This document shows, piece by piece, positions 50,472 through 55,392 of a stretch of DNA of 59,412 bases. The notes under the pieces were generated by a model that was given only the letters and a program-made list of their open reading frames with translations, ran no database searches and was not told the origin of the DNA. Source of the stretch: Burkholderiaceae bacterium (GTDB taxonomy: Bacteria > Pseudomonadota > Gammaproteobacteria > Burkholderiales > Burkholderiaceae_B); assembly GCA_017983955.1 (NCBI GenBank), contig JAGOAJ010000019.1, forward strand, positions 1 to 59,412, in the 5' to 3' direction. How positions within the stretch are numbered: the first letter of the stretch is position 1; each line of letters begins with the position of its first letter. The position numbers were made by a program, and so were the translations under genes.

Positions 50472-50500
50472 TTGACAAAATAAAACGAACGTTCTATAGT
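50472..50500 (+). promoter_or_regulatory. Sigma-70 promoter of the SDR-ACAD-APH operon with palindromic operator
   Basis: TTGACA (50472-50477), a 17-bp spacer and TATAGT (50495-50500) form a near-consensus promoter. The perfect palindrome GAACGTTC (50487-50494) fills the end of the spacer against the -10 box, where a repressor would block RNA polymerase. The TetR gene at the operon end is the obvious candidate. A clear AGGAG site precedes the first gene. Confidence 0.8.
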
Positions 50501-50522: not shown

Positions 50523-51290
50523 ATGCACGACACGACCTGCCTTCACGGCAAGGTGGCACTCATCACTGGGGCCGCAGGCGGCCTGGGCTCACATCTAGCT
50601 CAAACACTAGGCCGCACCGGCGCCAAAGTCGTCCTGGCGGGACGCAGGAAGGCCCCTCTGGAACAATTAGCAATCAAGCTGAAAAACCAGACGATCGATG
50701 CCCATGCCGTGGTTATGGATGTTACTGATGCACCCAGCGTTCAGGCAGGTTTCGACCAAATTCAGGAGCTTTATGGCAACGTAAACATCGCCGTGTGCAA
50801 CGCAGGGGTTACGTACACACAAGATTCGCTGACTCTGCCCGTTCAAGCATGGCAGCAGGTGATCGACGTTAATCTTACTGGCTGCTGGATAGTCGGCAAC
50901 GAAACCGCACGTCGGCTGATTCAAGCAGGGCAACCAGGTTCCATCATCAATATCTCCTCTATTCTGGGGCATCGAGTGGCTGGCAATGTCCTGCCTTATG
51001 CCGTATCCAAGGCCGGACTCGAACAAATGACCCGAGGATTGGCGCTGGAATGGGCGCGTTATGGGATCCGGGTCAATTGTCTGGCGCCCGGCTATATCGA
51101 AACTGACCTGAATCGTGAATTCTTCGCGTCCGATCAAGGCAAAGCCCTGATCAAGCGTATTCCCCAACGTCGCCTGGGCCAAGCCGCCGATCTGGACGGC
51201 CCGTTACTTTTGTTGGCGTCTGACGCCTCCCTATATATGACCGGCAGTTCCATCGTTGTCGATGGCGGCCATTTGCAGTCAACCCTTTAA
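50523..51290 (+). CDS. SDR-family oxidoreductase in the accessory catabolic operon
   Basis: A 255-residue classical SDR. The cofactor loop TGAAGGLG is at 15-22; catalytic S146, Y159 and K163 are placed correctly. Gly-Arg-Arg after the second strand (AGRRKAPLE) suggests NADP(H). It is comparable in position to LvaD of the levulinate operon, which is a related SDR, but the exact role (ketone reduction or hydroxyacyl oxidation) is not determined. First gene after the promoter; the next gene is 11 bp on. Confidence 0.87.
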   Translation: MHDTTCLHGKVALITGAAGGLGSHLAQTLGRTGAKVVLAGRRKAPLEQLAIKLKNQTIDAHAVVMDVTDAPSVQAGFDQIQELYGNVNIAVCNAGVTYTQDSLTLPVQAWQQVIDVNLTGCWIVGNETARRLIQAGQPGSIINISSILGHRVAGNVLPYAVSKAGLEQMTRGLALEWARYGIRVNCLAPGYIETDLNREFFASDQGKALIKRIPQRRLGQAADLDGPLLLLASDASLYMTGSSIVVDGGHLQSTL

Positions 51291-51301
51291 CGGATATCAC
51301 T

Positions 51302-52498
51302 ATGGACTTCACCCTTTCCAGTACCGCCGCAGACTATCGCAAGCGCATCAAGTCATTCGTCGACAGCGAGCTGATCCCGTTGGAAAAAGACCCCGCCTCC
51401 TACGACGAACACGAAAACGTTAACGAAGCGCTGCTGCAAATACTGCGCGACAAGGCCAAGCAACAGGGCCTGTGGTGTTTGCAAATGCCACGCGAGCGCG
51501 GTGGCCAAGGCTTGAAAGTGGCCGAAATGGCTGCCTGCTACGAGGAAATGAATCGATCCATCTTCGGACCGGTGGTGTTCAACTCCTCCGCGCCCGATGA
51601 CGGCAACATGATGGTCCTGAATAAAGTCGGTACGCCAGCGCAAAAAGACCGTTGGCTGCAGCCCATTATCGATGGCACGGTTCGTTCCTCCTTTGCCATG
51701 ACCGAGCCGGCTCCTGGCTGCGGTTCCGACCCATCCATGATGCAAACACGCGCCGAACGCCAGGGCAACGAATGGGTAATTCACGGCACCAAGCATTTCA
51801 TTACCGGAGCGGGCGTCGCTTCTCACTTCATACTAATTGCCCGCACATCCGACGATACCCGCAAGGGCTTGACAGCATTCATGTTTCATAAGGACGATCC
51901 GGGCTGGGAAATCGTGCGCCGCATTCCTATCATGGGGCCTGAAGAGCACGGCGGCCACTGCGAACTGCGCTTTAACGGGCTGCGCATTCCGGACGAAAAC
52001 CGCCTAATGGAAGTGGGCGATGGTTTAAAGCTGACTCAGATACGTCTGGGCACCGCACGTCTGACACACTGCATGCGTTGGCTTGGGCTGTCCAAACGGG
52101 CGCTTGAAATTGCCAGCGAGTATGTGTCCCGGCGCGAATCGTTTGGCGTTAAGCTGGCCGACCGTGAAGGAGTGCAATGGCTGCTGGGCGAAGCGGCAAT
52201 GGATATTCAGATTGGCCGCCTACTAACCATGCATGCCGCATGGACGTTGGATCAGGGCGACTTTGCCCGCAAGGAAGTGTCCATGGCGAAGGTCGTGGTA
52301 TCTGAAACCCTGCACAAGGCCGTAGATACAGCCATCCAGTTGTGCGGGGCTCGCGGCTACTCCAAAGACACGCCCTTAGAATGGATGTATCGCTATGCAC
52401 GCCAGGCGCGCCTGGTCGATGGCTCCTCGGAAGTACATAAGATGGTCTTGTCCAAGGCCTTACTAAGCGAAGGTAACGACTTTTGGCACTGGGGTTAA
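51302..52498 (+). CDS. ACAD10/11-like acyl-CoA dehydrogenase
   Basis: A 398-residue acyl-CoA dehydrogenase fold. FAD/acyl motifs such as FAMTEPAPGCGSDPSMMQT and the GIGRLLTMHAAW-like helix are recognisable. At the position of the catalytic glutamate of classical enzymes (YEGT) it has Asp373 in LVDGSSEVHK, the DGxxEVH pattern of ACAD10/ACAD11 and the lva-type dehydrogenases, which act on 4-phosphoacyl-CoA. It is therefore probably not a normal beta-oxidation dehydrogenase. Only 4 bp separate it from the kinase gene. Confidence 0.88.
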   Translation: MDFTLSSTAADYRKRIKSFVDSELIPLEKDPASYDEHENVNEALLQILRDKAKQQGLWCLQMPRERGGQGLKVAEMAACYEEMNRSIFGPVVFNSSAPDDGNMMVLNKVGTPAQKDRWLQPIIDGTVRSSFAMTEPAPGCGSDPSMMQTRAERQGNEWVIHGTKHFITGAGVASHFILIARTSDDTRKGLTAFMFHKDDPGWEIVRRIPIMGPEEHGGHCELRFNGLRIPDENRLMEVGDGLKLTQIRLGTARLTHCMRWLGLSKRALEIASEYVSRRESFGVKLADREGVQWLLGEAAMDIQIGRLLTMHAAWTLDQGDFARKEVSMAKVVVSETLHKAVDTAIQLCGARGYSKDTPLEWMYRYARQARLVDGSSEVHKMVLSKALLSEGNDFWHWG

Positions 52499-52502
52499 AA
52501 CC

Positions 52503-53534
52503 ATGAATTTCGATGAATTGGGTCAGGTGTTTGCGCAGTTTATCGGGGGCCAGACTGGCGCCAGCAAGGTCGATGTACTGGATTTTTCTCGTCTCACAGG
52601 AGGCGCCATACAAGATAACTATGCCCTAACCGTCCTGCAGCATGACGGCCACAACCCTGGCCGCAAAGAATTGGTGGTGCGTAGCGATGCACCATCGCAA
52701 ATTTCCGCCAGTTTAAGTCGGCCCCAGGAGTTTCATGTCCTTAACGTTGCCTACGAGGCTGGTGTCACAGTGCCCCAACCCTTATGGCTTTGTACAGATA
52801 CGTCCCTAATTGGGGCCGCCTTTTGCATCATGAGCCGGGTACAAGGCTCTGCCTCGCCCCGTCAACTGGTACGCGGTGGCTTAACTGACGGTCAGGCCCA
52901 AGCGCTAACACACCAGTTGGGAACAGAGCTTGCACGCTTGCACCGTGTTACGCCGCCTCGCGCCGAACTGGCTTTTTTGCACTTGCCTCTTATAAATCCA
53001 GCGCTTGATCGGGTACAGCAATATCGCAATGCGCTAGCTTCCATACCCGAGCCGCACCCAGCCCTGGAATGGTCGCTGAACTGGCTGCAAGACCATGCCC
53101 CTGAAAGCGACCCGATAGTCCTGTGCCATTGCGATTTCCGTACAGGCAACTATATGGCCCAAAACGGCCAGCTTACGGCGGTTCTGGACTGGGAGTTCGC
53201 CACCTGGAGCGACCCGTACGAAGACCTGGGATGGCTATGTGCCAAAAGCTGGCGGTTTGGCGCGAATGACCGCGAAGTGGGGGGCGTTGGGCATAAACAG
53301 GATCTCTTTAAAGGCTATGCCAGCCAATCAGGCAAATCTGTGGACACCAATAAGGTGTTGTACTGGGAAGTCATGGCCATGACGCGTTGGGCGATAATTG
53401 CCTTACAACAGGCGCAGCGTCATTTGTCGGGCGAACAATCCTCGCTGGAACTTGCCTTGACCGGACGCATGCTGCCTGAAATCGAATTTGATCTACTCAA
53501 CCAGATCCACGCACTGGAAAAGAAACATGATTAA
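52503..53534 (+). CDS. APH-fold kinase (4-hydroxyacyl-CoA kinase-like)
   Basis: A 343-residue phosphotransferase-family protein with the aminoglycoside phosphotransferase fold. The catalytic loop is H209-C-D211 ... N216 (HCDFRTGN) with the metal-binding D229 in LDWEF. The HxDxxxxN and DxEF motifs are those of the kinase half of ACAD10/11 and of LvaA, which phosphorylate 4-hydroxyacyl-CoA. Cys instead of Gly after the His is unusual. It overlaps the DUF6285 gene by 8 bp, implying a complex. Confidence 0.87.
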   Translation: MNFDELGQVFAQFIGGQTGASKVDVLDFSRLTGGAIQDNYALTVLQHDGHNPGRKELVVRSDAPSQISASLSRPQEFHVLNVAYEAGVTVPQPLWLCTDTSLIGAAFCIMSRVQGSASPRQLVRGGLTDGQAQALTHQLGTELARLHRVTPPRAELAFLHLPLINPALDRVQQYRNALASIPEPHPALEWSLNWLQDHAPESDPIVLCHCDFRTGNYMAQNGQLTAVLDWEFATWSDPYEDLGWLCAKSWRFGANDREVGGVGHKQDLFKGYASQSGKSVDTNKVLYWEVMAMTRWAIIALQQAQRHLSGEQSSLELALTGRMLPEIEFDLLNQIHALEKKHD

Positions 53535-53907
53535 TTTGCCGCACGGTCCCGACCTCTTGGCACTGGCAAGGCACACTTTGCTAAACGAGCTGCTGCCACT
53601 GCTACCGCCCGAAAAAGCCTACGAGGCCCGCATGGCAGCGAATGCCATTGCTATCGCTGCGCGTGAAATGCAGGCGCAAATCGCGCACGAACAAGATAGC
53701 GCCCAGCAAATCGCGGCCTTCCTGCAAAGTGCAGGTGTGGATGCCAAGACCGAGCCAACCGAACAAAGCCTGGCCCAGGCGATCCGCGAACGCCGGTTCG
53801 ATCCCTTAAACAACCAACCACTGCAATCCCTGCTAATGCGCTTGACACTAGCGAAGCTGGCTATCAGCAACCCCAAATACCTTCCCAGCGATTACGTGCA
53901 CGGTTAA
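53527..53907 (+). CDS. DUF6285 small protein, likely partner of the kinase
   Basis: A 126-residue, mainly helical protein (LPHGPDLLALARHTLLNELLPLLPPEKAYEARMAANAIAIAAREM) recognised as the small DUF6285-type protein that accompanies such kinases. In the lva operon the corresponding small gene lvaB is needed for LvaA kinase activity; equivalence is inferred. ATG 53527 overlaps the kinase stop by 8 bp. Confidence 0.8.
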   Translation: MINLPHGPDLLALARHTLLNELLPLLPPEKAYEARMAANAIAIAAREMQAQIAHEQDSAQQIAAFLQSAGVDAKTEPTEQSLAQAIRERRFDPLNNQPLQSLLMRLTLAKLAISNPKYLPSDYVHG

Positions 53908-53918
53908 GACTAAACATT

Positions 53919-54644
53919 ATGCAAAAAGTAAATGTCATCCTTCAAAAAGATGAACTGGACTCACTGAGAGCACCGGGTAAAGTAGCGATTGTCTTGGATA
54001 TTATTTTCGCCACTACCACCATCGTGACAGCCTTGCATCAGGGCGCACGATCGGTAATACCCGCGCTGGACGAACTCCAGGCCAGGCAAGCCGCTGCCGG
54101 GCGCGATCCCGCCAGCCTTGTGCTAGCTGGCGAATACCACGCCGACACGCTATCGGGTTTTCATCCCTACAATCCTTTAGCTATGCAGACATCGGTAATC
54201 GGGGGCAAGGACCTTATTTATTCAACCACCAACGGCACCGTAGCCTTATGCAACGCACAGGCCTGCAACCAAGTATACGTAGGTGCCCTGCTTAACGCCC
54301 AGGCCCTCACCCGTCATGTACTCCAGCACTACCCAAACGAAACGATACTACTAGTTTGCGCCGGGTCGCGCGGAGCCTTCTCCCTGGAAGACTTTTTCGG
54401 CGCCGGCTACTTTGTGCAACAACTATTGAAACAAGGCGGCGATGCACGGATCACCCTAAGCGACCCAGCCATTGCTGCTTTGCACCTGTTTGAGCGGAAT
54501 AGCCCGCTGCAAACCCTGTTATCTTCCAAAGTTGGCCAACGCTTGGCCGGGCGCGGTATGCTGCCAGATATTCACCACTGCGCGCAGCTGGACACCCACC
54601 CCATCGTCCCGGCCCTGATAGACGGCAGCATCGTCTGCCTATAA
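53919..54644 (+). CDS. Divergent ComB-like (2-phosphosulfolactate phosphatase family) protein
   Basis: A 241-residue protein of the ComB fold, which in methanogens removes phosphate from 2-phosphosulfolactate. Family landmarks are D27 in VLDIIFATTTIVTAL, AGEYHAD at 70-76, TTNGT at 103-107, CAGS at 147-150 and EDFFGAG at 157-163. Two landmarks deviate: the usual DVLRATTTI is DIIFATTTI, with Phe in place of the conserved Arg, and the usual GNSP stretch is replaced by PYNPLAM. It may thus act on another phosphate ester. Sulfonate chemistry is possible but has no other support here. Confidence 0.78.
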   Translation: MQKVNVILQKDELDSLRAPGKVAIVLDIIFATTTIVTALHQGARSVIPALDELQARQAAAGRDPASLVLAGEYHADTLSGFHPYNPLAMQTSVIGGKDLIYSTTNGTVALCNAQACNQVYVGALLNAQALTRHVLQHYPNETILLVCAGSRGAFSLEDFFGAGYFVQQLLKQGGDARITLSDPAIAALHLFERNSPLQTLLSSKVGQRLAGRGMLPDIHHCAQLDTHPIVPALIDGSIVCL

Positions 54645-54702
54645 GACTACGCCCCGCAACACGGCCAACACCATATCATTATCATCAAAAAAACAGGCCC
54701 TT

Positions 54703-55392
54703 ATGACCTCTGATTTTGAATCGTTCAAGATCCAGCTCAGTCTTTCCAAAGATGAAATCTACCGCGAGTTGTATATCAAGAACAAGGATCTGATCCGCAT
54801 CAAGAAAGAACATGTCGCGATCAAAAACCTGGCTCGTATTATCGACTCGACGCTGCGGCTGGCTGCCTCCAAGGGCTTTCATGCCATGTCCCTGCGCGAC
54901 CTGTGCGAGGACTCGGGCTTAAGCATAGGAGGGCTATATGCCTACATCAAGAACAAAGATGACCTGATCCAGTTAATTCAAGGCCACGGCTTTATCTTGA
55001 CCCGGCGTACCATGCTTACCTATACCCAAGACATCAGCCCGGCGCGCGACAAGCTGTTTACGGCCGTCAGAACTCACTTATATCTAAGCGAGTTGATGCT
55101 GCCCTGGTTTAATTTTTCCTTCATGGAAGCAAAGAGCCTGCCAGCCAAAGAAAAAAAAGCAGCCATTGCTATCGAACTTGAAATTGAAAATATCTTTTTC
55201 GATATTATTAACGAAGGCATCGCCACGCACACCTTCAAGGCCATCGATGCACGCCTTTTGTCATCTATGATCAAAGCCATGATGCAAGACTGGTATTTAA
55301 AACGGCGCAAATACCGCAATCAAGGCGTGAACGTAACTCAGTATGCCTTGTTCGTCATGAGCATCTTGGACAGCTTCCTAGTAAAAACATAA
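54703..55392 (+). CDS. TetR-family regulator with long N-terminal extension
   Basis: A 229-residue TetR-like regulator. The helix-turn-helix is at residues 63-88 (SLRDLCEDSGLSIGGLYAYIKNKDDL). About 38 residues precede the usual start of the domain and are charged and helical (SKDEIYRELYIKNKDLIRIKKEH). The C-terminal helical ligand domain has no known match. It lies 58 bp after the ComB-like gene in the same direction and most likely represses the promoter at 50472. Confidence 0.88.
   Translation: MTSDFESFKIQLSLSKDEIYRELYIKNKDLIRIKKEHVAIKNLARIIDSTLRLAASKGFHAMSLRDLCEDSGLSIGGLYAYIKNKDDLIQLIQGHGFILTRRTMLTYTQDISPARDKLFTAVRTHLYLSELMLPWFNFSFMEAKSLPAKEKKAAIAIELEIENIFFDIINEGIATHTFKAIDARLLSSMIKAMMQDWYLKRRKYRNQGVNVTQYALFVMSILDSFLVKT

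Follow-up and report, generated by a model that had tools for sequence, protein, structure and literature searches.

The subject of this report is an operon of six genes on contig C7 (JAGOAJ010000019.1) of the 3.32-Mb draft genome of a Burkholderiaceae bacterium (GCA_017983955.1). The window, i.e., the whole stretch of DNA that was analyzed, is this contig of 59,412 bases; the six genes lie on its + strand at 50523..55392. Their open reading frames and Pfam matches identify a short-chain dehydrogenase/reductase (SDR), an acyl-coenzyme A (CoA) dehydrogenase (ACAD) of the ACAD10/11 type, a kinase with the aminoglycoside phosphotransferase (APH) fold, a DUF6285 protein, a ComB-like protein of the PF04029 family, and a TetR regulator. 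The features are as follows.

50485..50497, + strand: probable TetR operator, ACGAACGTTCTAT, palindromic GAACGTTC, directly 5' of the SDR gene
50523..51290, + strand: SDR oxidoreductase in an LvaD-like position; PF13561 (adh_short_C2), 5e-56
51302..52498, + strand: ACAD10/11-type acyl-CoA dehydrogenase, LvaC-like; catalytic Asp373 in DGSSEVH, best PDB match ACAD11
52503..53534, + strand: APH-fold small-molecule kinase, LvaA-like; PF01636, 2e-41; HCDFRTGN loop at 209, DWE at 229
53527..53907, + strand: DUF6285 protein, 126 aa, LvaB-like in position and size; PF19802, 2e-20
53919..54644, + strand: ComB-like PF04029 protein, F-type subfamily; PF04029, 2.6e-57; DIIFATT in place of ..RATS
54703..55392, + strand: TetR regulator, probably of the SDR-ACAD-kinase-DUF6285-ComB operon; PF00440 (TetR_N), 6e-10

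The intergenic gaps are, in gene order, 11, 4, -8, 11 and 58 bp if DUF6285 starts at the ATG at 53527, and the co-directional arrangement and spacing described in the initial annotation are borne out. Genes of a sugar/glycerol-phosphate-type ATP-binding cassette (ABC) transporter lie upstream and end 256 bp ahead of the SDR gene, a spacing that places them outside the unit. The order SDR-ACAD-APH-DUF6285-[ligase]-ComB-TetR is kept in three further genomes of the family (loci L075-L077), where the SDR at the syntenic place is 69-74% identical to that of the window.

Comparison at the protein level gives good support for assigning the operon core to the lva/ACAD10-11 type of cassette. It is established that ACAD10/11 and their bacterial orthologues use a kinase and an ACAD to convert 4-hydroxyacyl-CoA to enoyl-CoA via a 4-phospho intermediate (PMC11342911, PMC12440821). 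In a PDB search, the closest solved relatives of the window ACAD were ACAD11 structures, including 2wbi/8v3u (6e-67 to 5e-65), along with 4hr3, a putative acyl-CoA dehydrogenase (6e-65); the next matches were at 2e-53 or weaker. Asp373 of its DGSSEVH motif aligns with the Asp of DGPDEVH in ACAD11, and in a 23-row tree the enzyme joins ACAD11 and the kinase-cassette ACADs in a 14-row clade with support of 92/96, the rows outside being nine other ACADs. The kinase has both the HxDxxxxN loop (HCDFRTGN) and the DWE motif, and the PDB search matches it to the kinase of ACAD11 (8v3v, 6.5e-14) and to 3dxp (3.5e-15). Both proteins had earlier been placed in the lva/ACAD10-11 group, and nothing found here moves them outside the LvaA/LvaC-ACAD10/11 clades. 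The DUF6285 protein, whose gene overlaps that of the kinase by 8 bp, is likened to LvaB by position and size, not by sequence; DUF6285 adjoins the kinase or is fused to it in all 40 family loci and all 29 phylum loci.

The operon shares with lvaABCDE of Pseudomonas putida the kinase, the ACAD10/11-type ACAD and the SDR, along with a putative small partner (DUF6285 in the matching position) and, elsewhere in the genome, a ligase and a transporter; this likeness to LvaA-LvaE is one of family, position, size and published description. It differs in having the ComB-like gene and the TetR regulator and in carrying no ligase within the operon. Plasmid cassettes of lva type in Stutzerimonas and Azotobacter carry acyl-CoA synthetase and DUF485 genes. 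With mammalian ACAD10 and ACAD11, by analogy, the window would share the kinase and ACAD chemistry.

The association of ComB with such cassettes extends well beyond the window. PF04029 was searched for in 268 genomes of the family and found in nine, eight of which have a kinase of this type within 3 kb. These eight cassettes, every one with an ACAD that has the Asp of the DG..EVH motif, fall into three synteny types: the window with L075-L077; L066 with L079, where the kinase is fused to DUF6285; and L078 with L080, where 4HBT-ComB lies on the strand opposite thiolase-SDR-kinase-ACAD-ligase. The ninth gene (L081, G395:C4:143766-144341) is interrupted by a stop codon, and the 19 kb fetched around it hold no kinase. 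The density of PF01636 genes, about 1.9/Mb in 37 genomes of the order, gives a chance of about 1.4% that one lies within 3 kb of a given ComB gene; counted by synteny types instead of genomes, three of four are linked, with a chance of about 1e-5. The idea that ComB is a chance neighbor was therefore rejected.

Beyond the family, flanks of up to 9 kb per side (less on short contigs) were scanned around the best 80 of 177 ComB relatives, hereafter the named loci. Those with a kinase at 3 kb or less come from two Candidimonas (C. humi and C. nitroreducens, of the window's own family), two Lysobacter, Luteibacter, a gammaproteobacterium, Anaeromyxobacter and a deltaproteobacterium, the last of which has its kinase truncated where the contig ends. 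In Lysobacter spongiae the stop codon of ComB shares an ATGA with the start codon of the kinase. Counted by distinct ComB sequences, 14 of 100 have a kinase within 3 kb against about 1.4 expected, related loci not being independent, and six more have one 6-13 kb away. Three of these six were mapped (G022, G083 and G250), and in each a ligase-ACAD10/11-kinase-thiolase group diverges from an ACAD-MaoC/4HBT-ComB group. The order has 44 genomes with ComB; among the 37 of them searched for PF01636, at least G022, G083, G152 and G250 have such a gene within 13 kb of ComB. A single-protein scan of genome contigs gave no match, and ComB was found on plasmids in six distant records. The ComB-kinase link is real; conserved in eight of nine cases within the family and present in Lysobacter/Luteibacter and Myxococcota, it answers the earlier concern that ComB might show no conserved linkage in other genomes. 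Beside the L081 gene, on the other strand, there is an acyl-CoA ligase match, and this copy is perhaps decaying.

By sequence, the window ComB and its relatives are a distinct subfamily of PF04029. The Arg that precedes AT[ST] in the family motif is replaced by Phe in 118 and by Cys in two of 120 subfamily rows (100 distinct), hence the term F-type. The same Arg is kept in 10/10 outside PF04029 proteins read, namely 1vr0, 2yyv, 2z0j and seven from loci, placed in four of the ten by eye at the like position of an RSF/RAF motif; of eight weak outside-type matches fetched from the order, L116, L117, L119 and L121 were read by eye, with L118, L120, L122, L123 and a partial match in G084 left out. 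The search for the 80 named rows used patterns, one of them biased toward F/C; the 40 rows from the family and order came from the Pfam model by itself and agree 40/40. A second canonical Arg (GER) proves nothing by itself, since only 3/10 outsiders have it. Across 68 subfamily rows and three outside members, D27, T103, N105, G106, T107, C147 and D182 are invariant and E72 and D158 nearly so. An AlphaFold model of the window protein (predicted local distance difference test score 96) superposes on 1vr0 with a template modeling score of 0.92-0.95; for chain A the scores are 0.93/0.95 and the root-mean-square deviation is 1.5 A. ComB 2-phosphosulfolactate phosphatases (1vr0, 2yyv and 2z0j) thus have the same fold and many motif residues in common with the window protein, which differs from them in its 26-31% identity, the exchange of Arg for Phe/Cys, and its acyl-CoA gene context. 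All eight NCBIfam models for 2-phosphosulfolactate phosphatase score it below cut-off, e.g., TIGR00298 with 100.7 bits against 175.

The position after kinase-DUF6285 is a variable slot that unrelated phosphatases share. Cassettes were sampled from the family (40), the phylum (29) and plasmids, where 13 kinase-bearing records of 219 found were opened. A histidine phosphatase lies directly 3' of DUF6285 in 9/40 family cassettes, all of one genus (g2), and ComB is present in six: three times right after DUF6285 or its fusion and three times after a ligase. Of the 13 plasmid records, seven follow DUF6285 immediately with a histidine phosphatase gene (Azoarcus KH32C, Stutzerimonas S116, Azospirillum B510, A. 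ramasamyi and three Thermus). The other six do not; one of these, Azotobacter, shows a weak match that may be a remnant. Those histidine phosphatases from related cassettes that were run, one of the nine from g2 included, match PF00300 only and the window ComB matches PF04029 only. No locus scanned for both phosphatases has the two together, although six and nine of 40 are too few for a strong test of mutual exclusion. ComB itself is, judging from gene content, an optional part of the cassette, because L236 and L244 have the TetR gene (61% and 68% identical to that of the window) right after DUF6285 with ComB absent. The Azospirillum B510 histidine phosphatase gene is broken by an IS21-type element (L285:6379-9719).

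Trees of the neighboring genes give two views of how the slot was filled. In the ACAD tree, which is sparse, the window and Candidimonas humi have the Azospirillum histidine-phosphatase cassette as their nearest neighbor (100/100). In the kinase tree (69 rows), a quick tree whose deep branches are unsure, nine label changes are needed among ComB, histidine phosphatase and none, five for ComB and four for histidine phosphatase taken separately. A direct swap of one phosphatase for the other, suggested by the ACAD tree, was not adopted; the kinase tree does not suggest it and phosphatase-less cassettes lie between.

The slot has precedents. In the lva cluster of P. citronellolis LA18T a histidine phosphatase is present, and the authors suggest that it removes the phosphate from 4-phosphovaleryl-CoA; they found no lvaB there (PMC6692424). 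This cluster and the window share a phosphatase-family gene between the kinase and the ACAD/SDR genes (PMC6692424), and differ in that the P. citronellolis protein belongs to the histidine phosphatase family and that of the window to PF04029. ACAD10 likewise has a phosphatase-superfamily domain, of the haloacid dehalogenase (HAD) type, on its kinase; this domain has negligible phosphatase activity, restrains the kinase, and is thought to limit 4-phospho-hydroxyacyl-CoA (PMC11342911). The HAD domain is fused and nearly inactive, whereas ComB in the window stands alone as a protein and has a different fold. The P. citronellolis locus numbers in PMC6692424 leave a gap between the kinase (0390) and the phosphatase (0393), the place of DUF6285 in the Stutzerimonas cassette, and lvaB may have been overlooked.

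The operon probably serves to break down hydroxy acids, and from these assignments we infer the following scheme. The SDR would set the oxidation state at C4, making or oxidizing a 4-hydroxyacyl-CoA; the APH kinase with its DUF6285 partner would transfer a phosphate to a hydroxyacyl-CoA at its hydroxyl group; and elimination of this phosphate by the ACAD10/11-type enzyme would give an enoyl-CoA that enters beta-oxidation. ComB would hydrolyze phospho-hydroxyacyl-CoA unused by the ACAD, or the phospho-hydroxy acid left after loss of CoA, and would thereby act as a safety valve that keeps the phosphorylated intermediate from building up and trapping CoA. Since an unrelated phosphatase occupies the corresponding position in related operons, the comparison suggests that a phosphatase is often maintained next to the kinase in this pathway. 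Taken whole, i.e., an lva/ACAD10-11 cassette under TetR control in which ComB is the phosphatase partner of the kinase and limits phospho-hydroxyacyl-CoA, this reading is offered tentatively, its chance of being right falling just short of even.

Several observations speak against it. A phosphatase acting on the product of the kinase would create a futile cycle if it were neither slow nor selective, and the loss of the Arg could mean that activity has been lost or changed. A phosphatase is not essential to the cassette, because 25/40 family and 29/29 phylum-sample cassettes have neither, and lvaABCDE of P. putida, as described in PMC6692424, includes none. The closest non-ComB cassettes to the window in the kinase tree have no phosphatase, and the Azospirillum kinases lie outside the 32-row clade of the window kinase. 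Moreover, 70 of the 80 named loci show no kinase in the fetched flank, although those on short contigs may hide one. The ComB tree contains a clade of 50 rows without any kinase link, every kinase-linked row being among the other 50. The idea in the initial annotation of a phosphate step added or corrected by ComB keeps its plausibility by analogy with the histidine phosphatase that fills the same slot in related cassettes; it is weakened by the absence of either phosphatase from most cassettes, by the lost Arg and by the many members with no kinase in reach. Neither the subfamily change nor the histidine phosphatase figures in that annotation.

The ComB tree is a quick tree of 100 rows in which 34 of 101 inner branches are open; on it, parsimony places four changes in kinase linkage, at least one of them forced, and shuffled labels score as low in 58/500 trials, with which a single origin of the link is compatible. 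In the named loci, MaoC models match in 59/80 (55 at 100 bits or more) and the pair of ACADs (models ACADa/b) in 45-46 of 80, and a hotdog gene (MaoC or 4HBT) adjoins ComB in many. In the f18 group an ACAD10/11-like gene lies in the ComB neighborhood at 8/9 loci, one of them placed by tree, and in the four f18 genomes examined (G065, G109, G148 and G185) the best kinase is located elsewhere. A strictly kinase-bound role for the entire subfamily was consequently set aside as unsupported, most sampled members being in MaoC/ACAD clusters without a nearby kinase. A conserved cluster of two ACADs, a 3-hydroxyacyl-CoA dehydrogenase, a MaoC dehydratase and an F-type ComB recurs at L107, L138, L132, L129 and similar loci, many from uncultured Betaproteobacteria; it often includes a gene that we take from its N terminus to be MlrC-like (13/80 named loci).

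These clusters bring up the rival with the best claim, in which F-type ComB hydrolyzes, as a phosphatase or otherwise, a different acyl-CoA pathway intermediate; it would do so in kinase cassettes and MaoC/ACAD clusters alike, without depending on an LvaA-type kinase. The frequency of MaoC and of the ACAD pair in the named loci, the hotdog neighbors and the 50-row kinase-free clade are what it would lead one to expect. The kinase links far above chance (14/100 against about 1.4, with the same caution about related loci), the unrelated phosphatase that occupies the same slot in kinase cassettes and the ACAD10/11-like gene near ComB in 8/9 f18 loci (one tree-tested) fit it poorly, and we consider it somewhat unlikely, if still a serious contender. 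Alternatively, ComB may have become a regulatory pseudo-phosphatase that, bound to the kinase or to the phospho-intermediate, holds the kinase in check without turnover, as the HAD domain of ACAD10 does; that domain restrains its kinase although it does not have the full DxD motif (PMC11342911), and F-type ComBs have lost an Arg kept in all ten other members read. The invariant and near-invariant active-site residues are those expected of a working site (68 rows plus the three outsiders), and the other occupant of the slot, the histidine phosphatase, belongs to an active enzyme class, which makes a pseudo-enzyme the less probable of these two alternatives and unlikely overall.

Two further explanations fare much worse. 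That ComB is an ordinary 2-phosphosulfolactate phosphatase, traveling by chance or serving sulfonate metabolism, draws on its fold and family and is highly improbable in view of the eight failed NCBIfam cut-offs, the replaced Arg, the 8/9 linkage and the lack of any sulfonate gene among the typed neighbors; the NCBIfam scores and the Arg replacement led to its rejection as the principal interpretation. Equally hard to credit is the proposal that ComB replaces or assists phosphate elimination itself, as a phosphate lyase on 4-phosphoacyl-CoA: its place beside the kinase and the ACAD and its altered motif residue would suit such a role, but all eight kinase-linked family cassettes keep an ACAD with the Asp in DG..EVH, and an ACAD10/11-type enzyme performs the elimination alone (PMC11342911).

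Descriptions of the kinase-ACAD route for 4-hydroxy acids are recent; the pathway and a histidine phosphatase in an lva cluster are already in print. The literature searched, which left most subscription papers outside, contained neither ComB in an lva-type cluster nor the ComB subfamily with its residue change nor the sharing of the slot, and it yielded no paper on DUF6285 by name; a biogas metagenome paper and a gut microbiome study were the matches that pair phosphosulfolactate phosphatase with acyl-CoA dehydrogenase. A broader claim, which we regard as doubtful, is that F-type ComBs of Betaproteobacteria, Gammaproteobacteria and Myxococcota form a new family of enzymes in acyl-CoA catabolism that dephosphorylates phospho-hydroxyacyl-CoAs, and that three unrelated folds (ComB, histidine phosphatase and HAD) have come to occupy the slot beside the kinase. 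If that were true, the MaoC/ACAD clusters with no kinase nearby would imply that phosphorylated acyl-CoA intermediates are used far more widely than lva and ACAD10/11 suggest. Separate phosphatases, of two unrelated families in one slot, offer a simple way to ask if the pathway requires one to limit its phosphorylated CoA intermediate, and cassettes with them would give a function to a subfamily that goes under the Pfam name 2-phosphosulpholactate phosphatase. The pairing of ComB-fold proteins with kinases may extend further. Other PF04029 proteins adjoin sugar kinases, as with a ribokinase on a Mesorhizobium plasmid (L284:3025-4714), and one stands beside phosphoribulokinase in a Calvin-cycle gene group of Allomeiothermus (L282:1341-4666).

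No acyl-CoA ligase occurs within the operon (genes of the window before 47.4 kb were typed in part), so that the earlier statement that the window lacks one holds for the operon; a ligase is found on contig C26 of the same genome. In the L075-L077 operons the ligase sits between DUF6285 and ComB, and the C26 ligase is 71% identical to that of L075 and 77% to that of L237, another family cassette, in which the ligase is followed by the substrate-binding protein and permease of an ABC transporter. On C26 the ligase is likewise followed by a substrate-binding protein and a permease, 88% and 91% identical to their L237 counterparts. Because the C26 ligase and transporter match those of a family cassette, the pathway looks, from these identities, to be split over two genome sites, with the operon on C7 and the ligase and ABC transporter on C26.

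The GAACG..TTC site ahead of the SDR gene would be where TetR acts to control the operon. The palindrome just 5' of SDR reads GAACGTTC in the window, GAACGATCGTTC in L075 and L236, and GAACGATCGCTC in L076 and L077; L244 has a diverged version in the same region. The TetR proteins in the same place in L075-L077 are 70-83% identical to that of the window. The genome holds no other exact copy of ACGAACGTTCTAT and three copies with one mismatch, the same number as for a reversed control pattern.

The same genome contains a second ACAD-SDR-kinase cassette (G000:C31:67000-70100; L205:5024-8096), beside which neither ComB nor DUF6285 was seen. The gene that follows it begins, by eye, like a flavin adenine dinucleotide (FAD) oxidoreductase.

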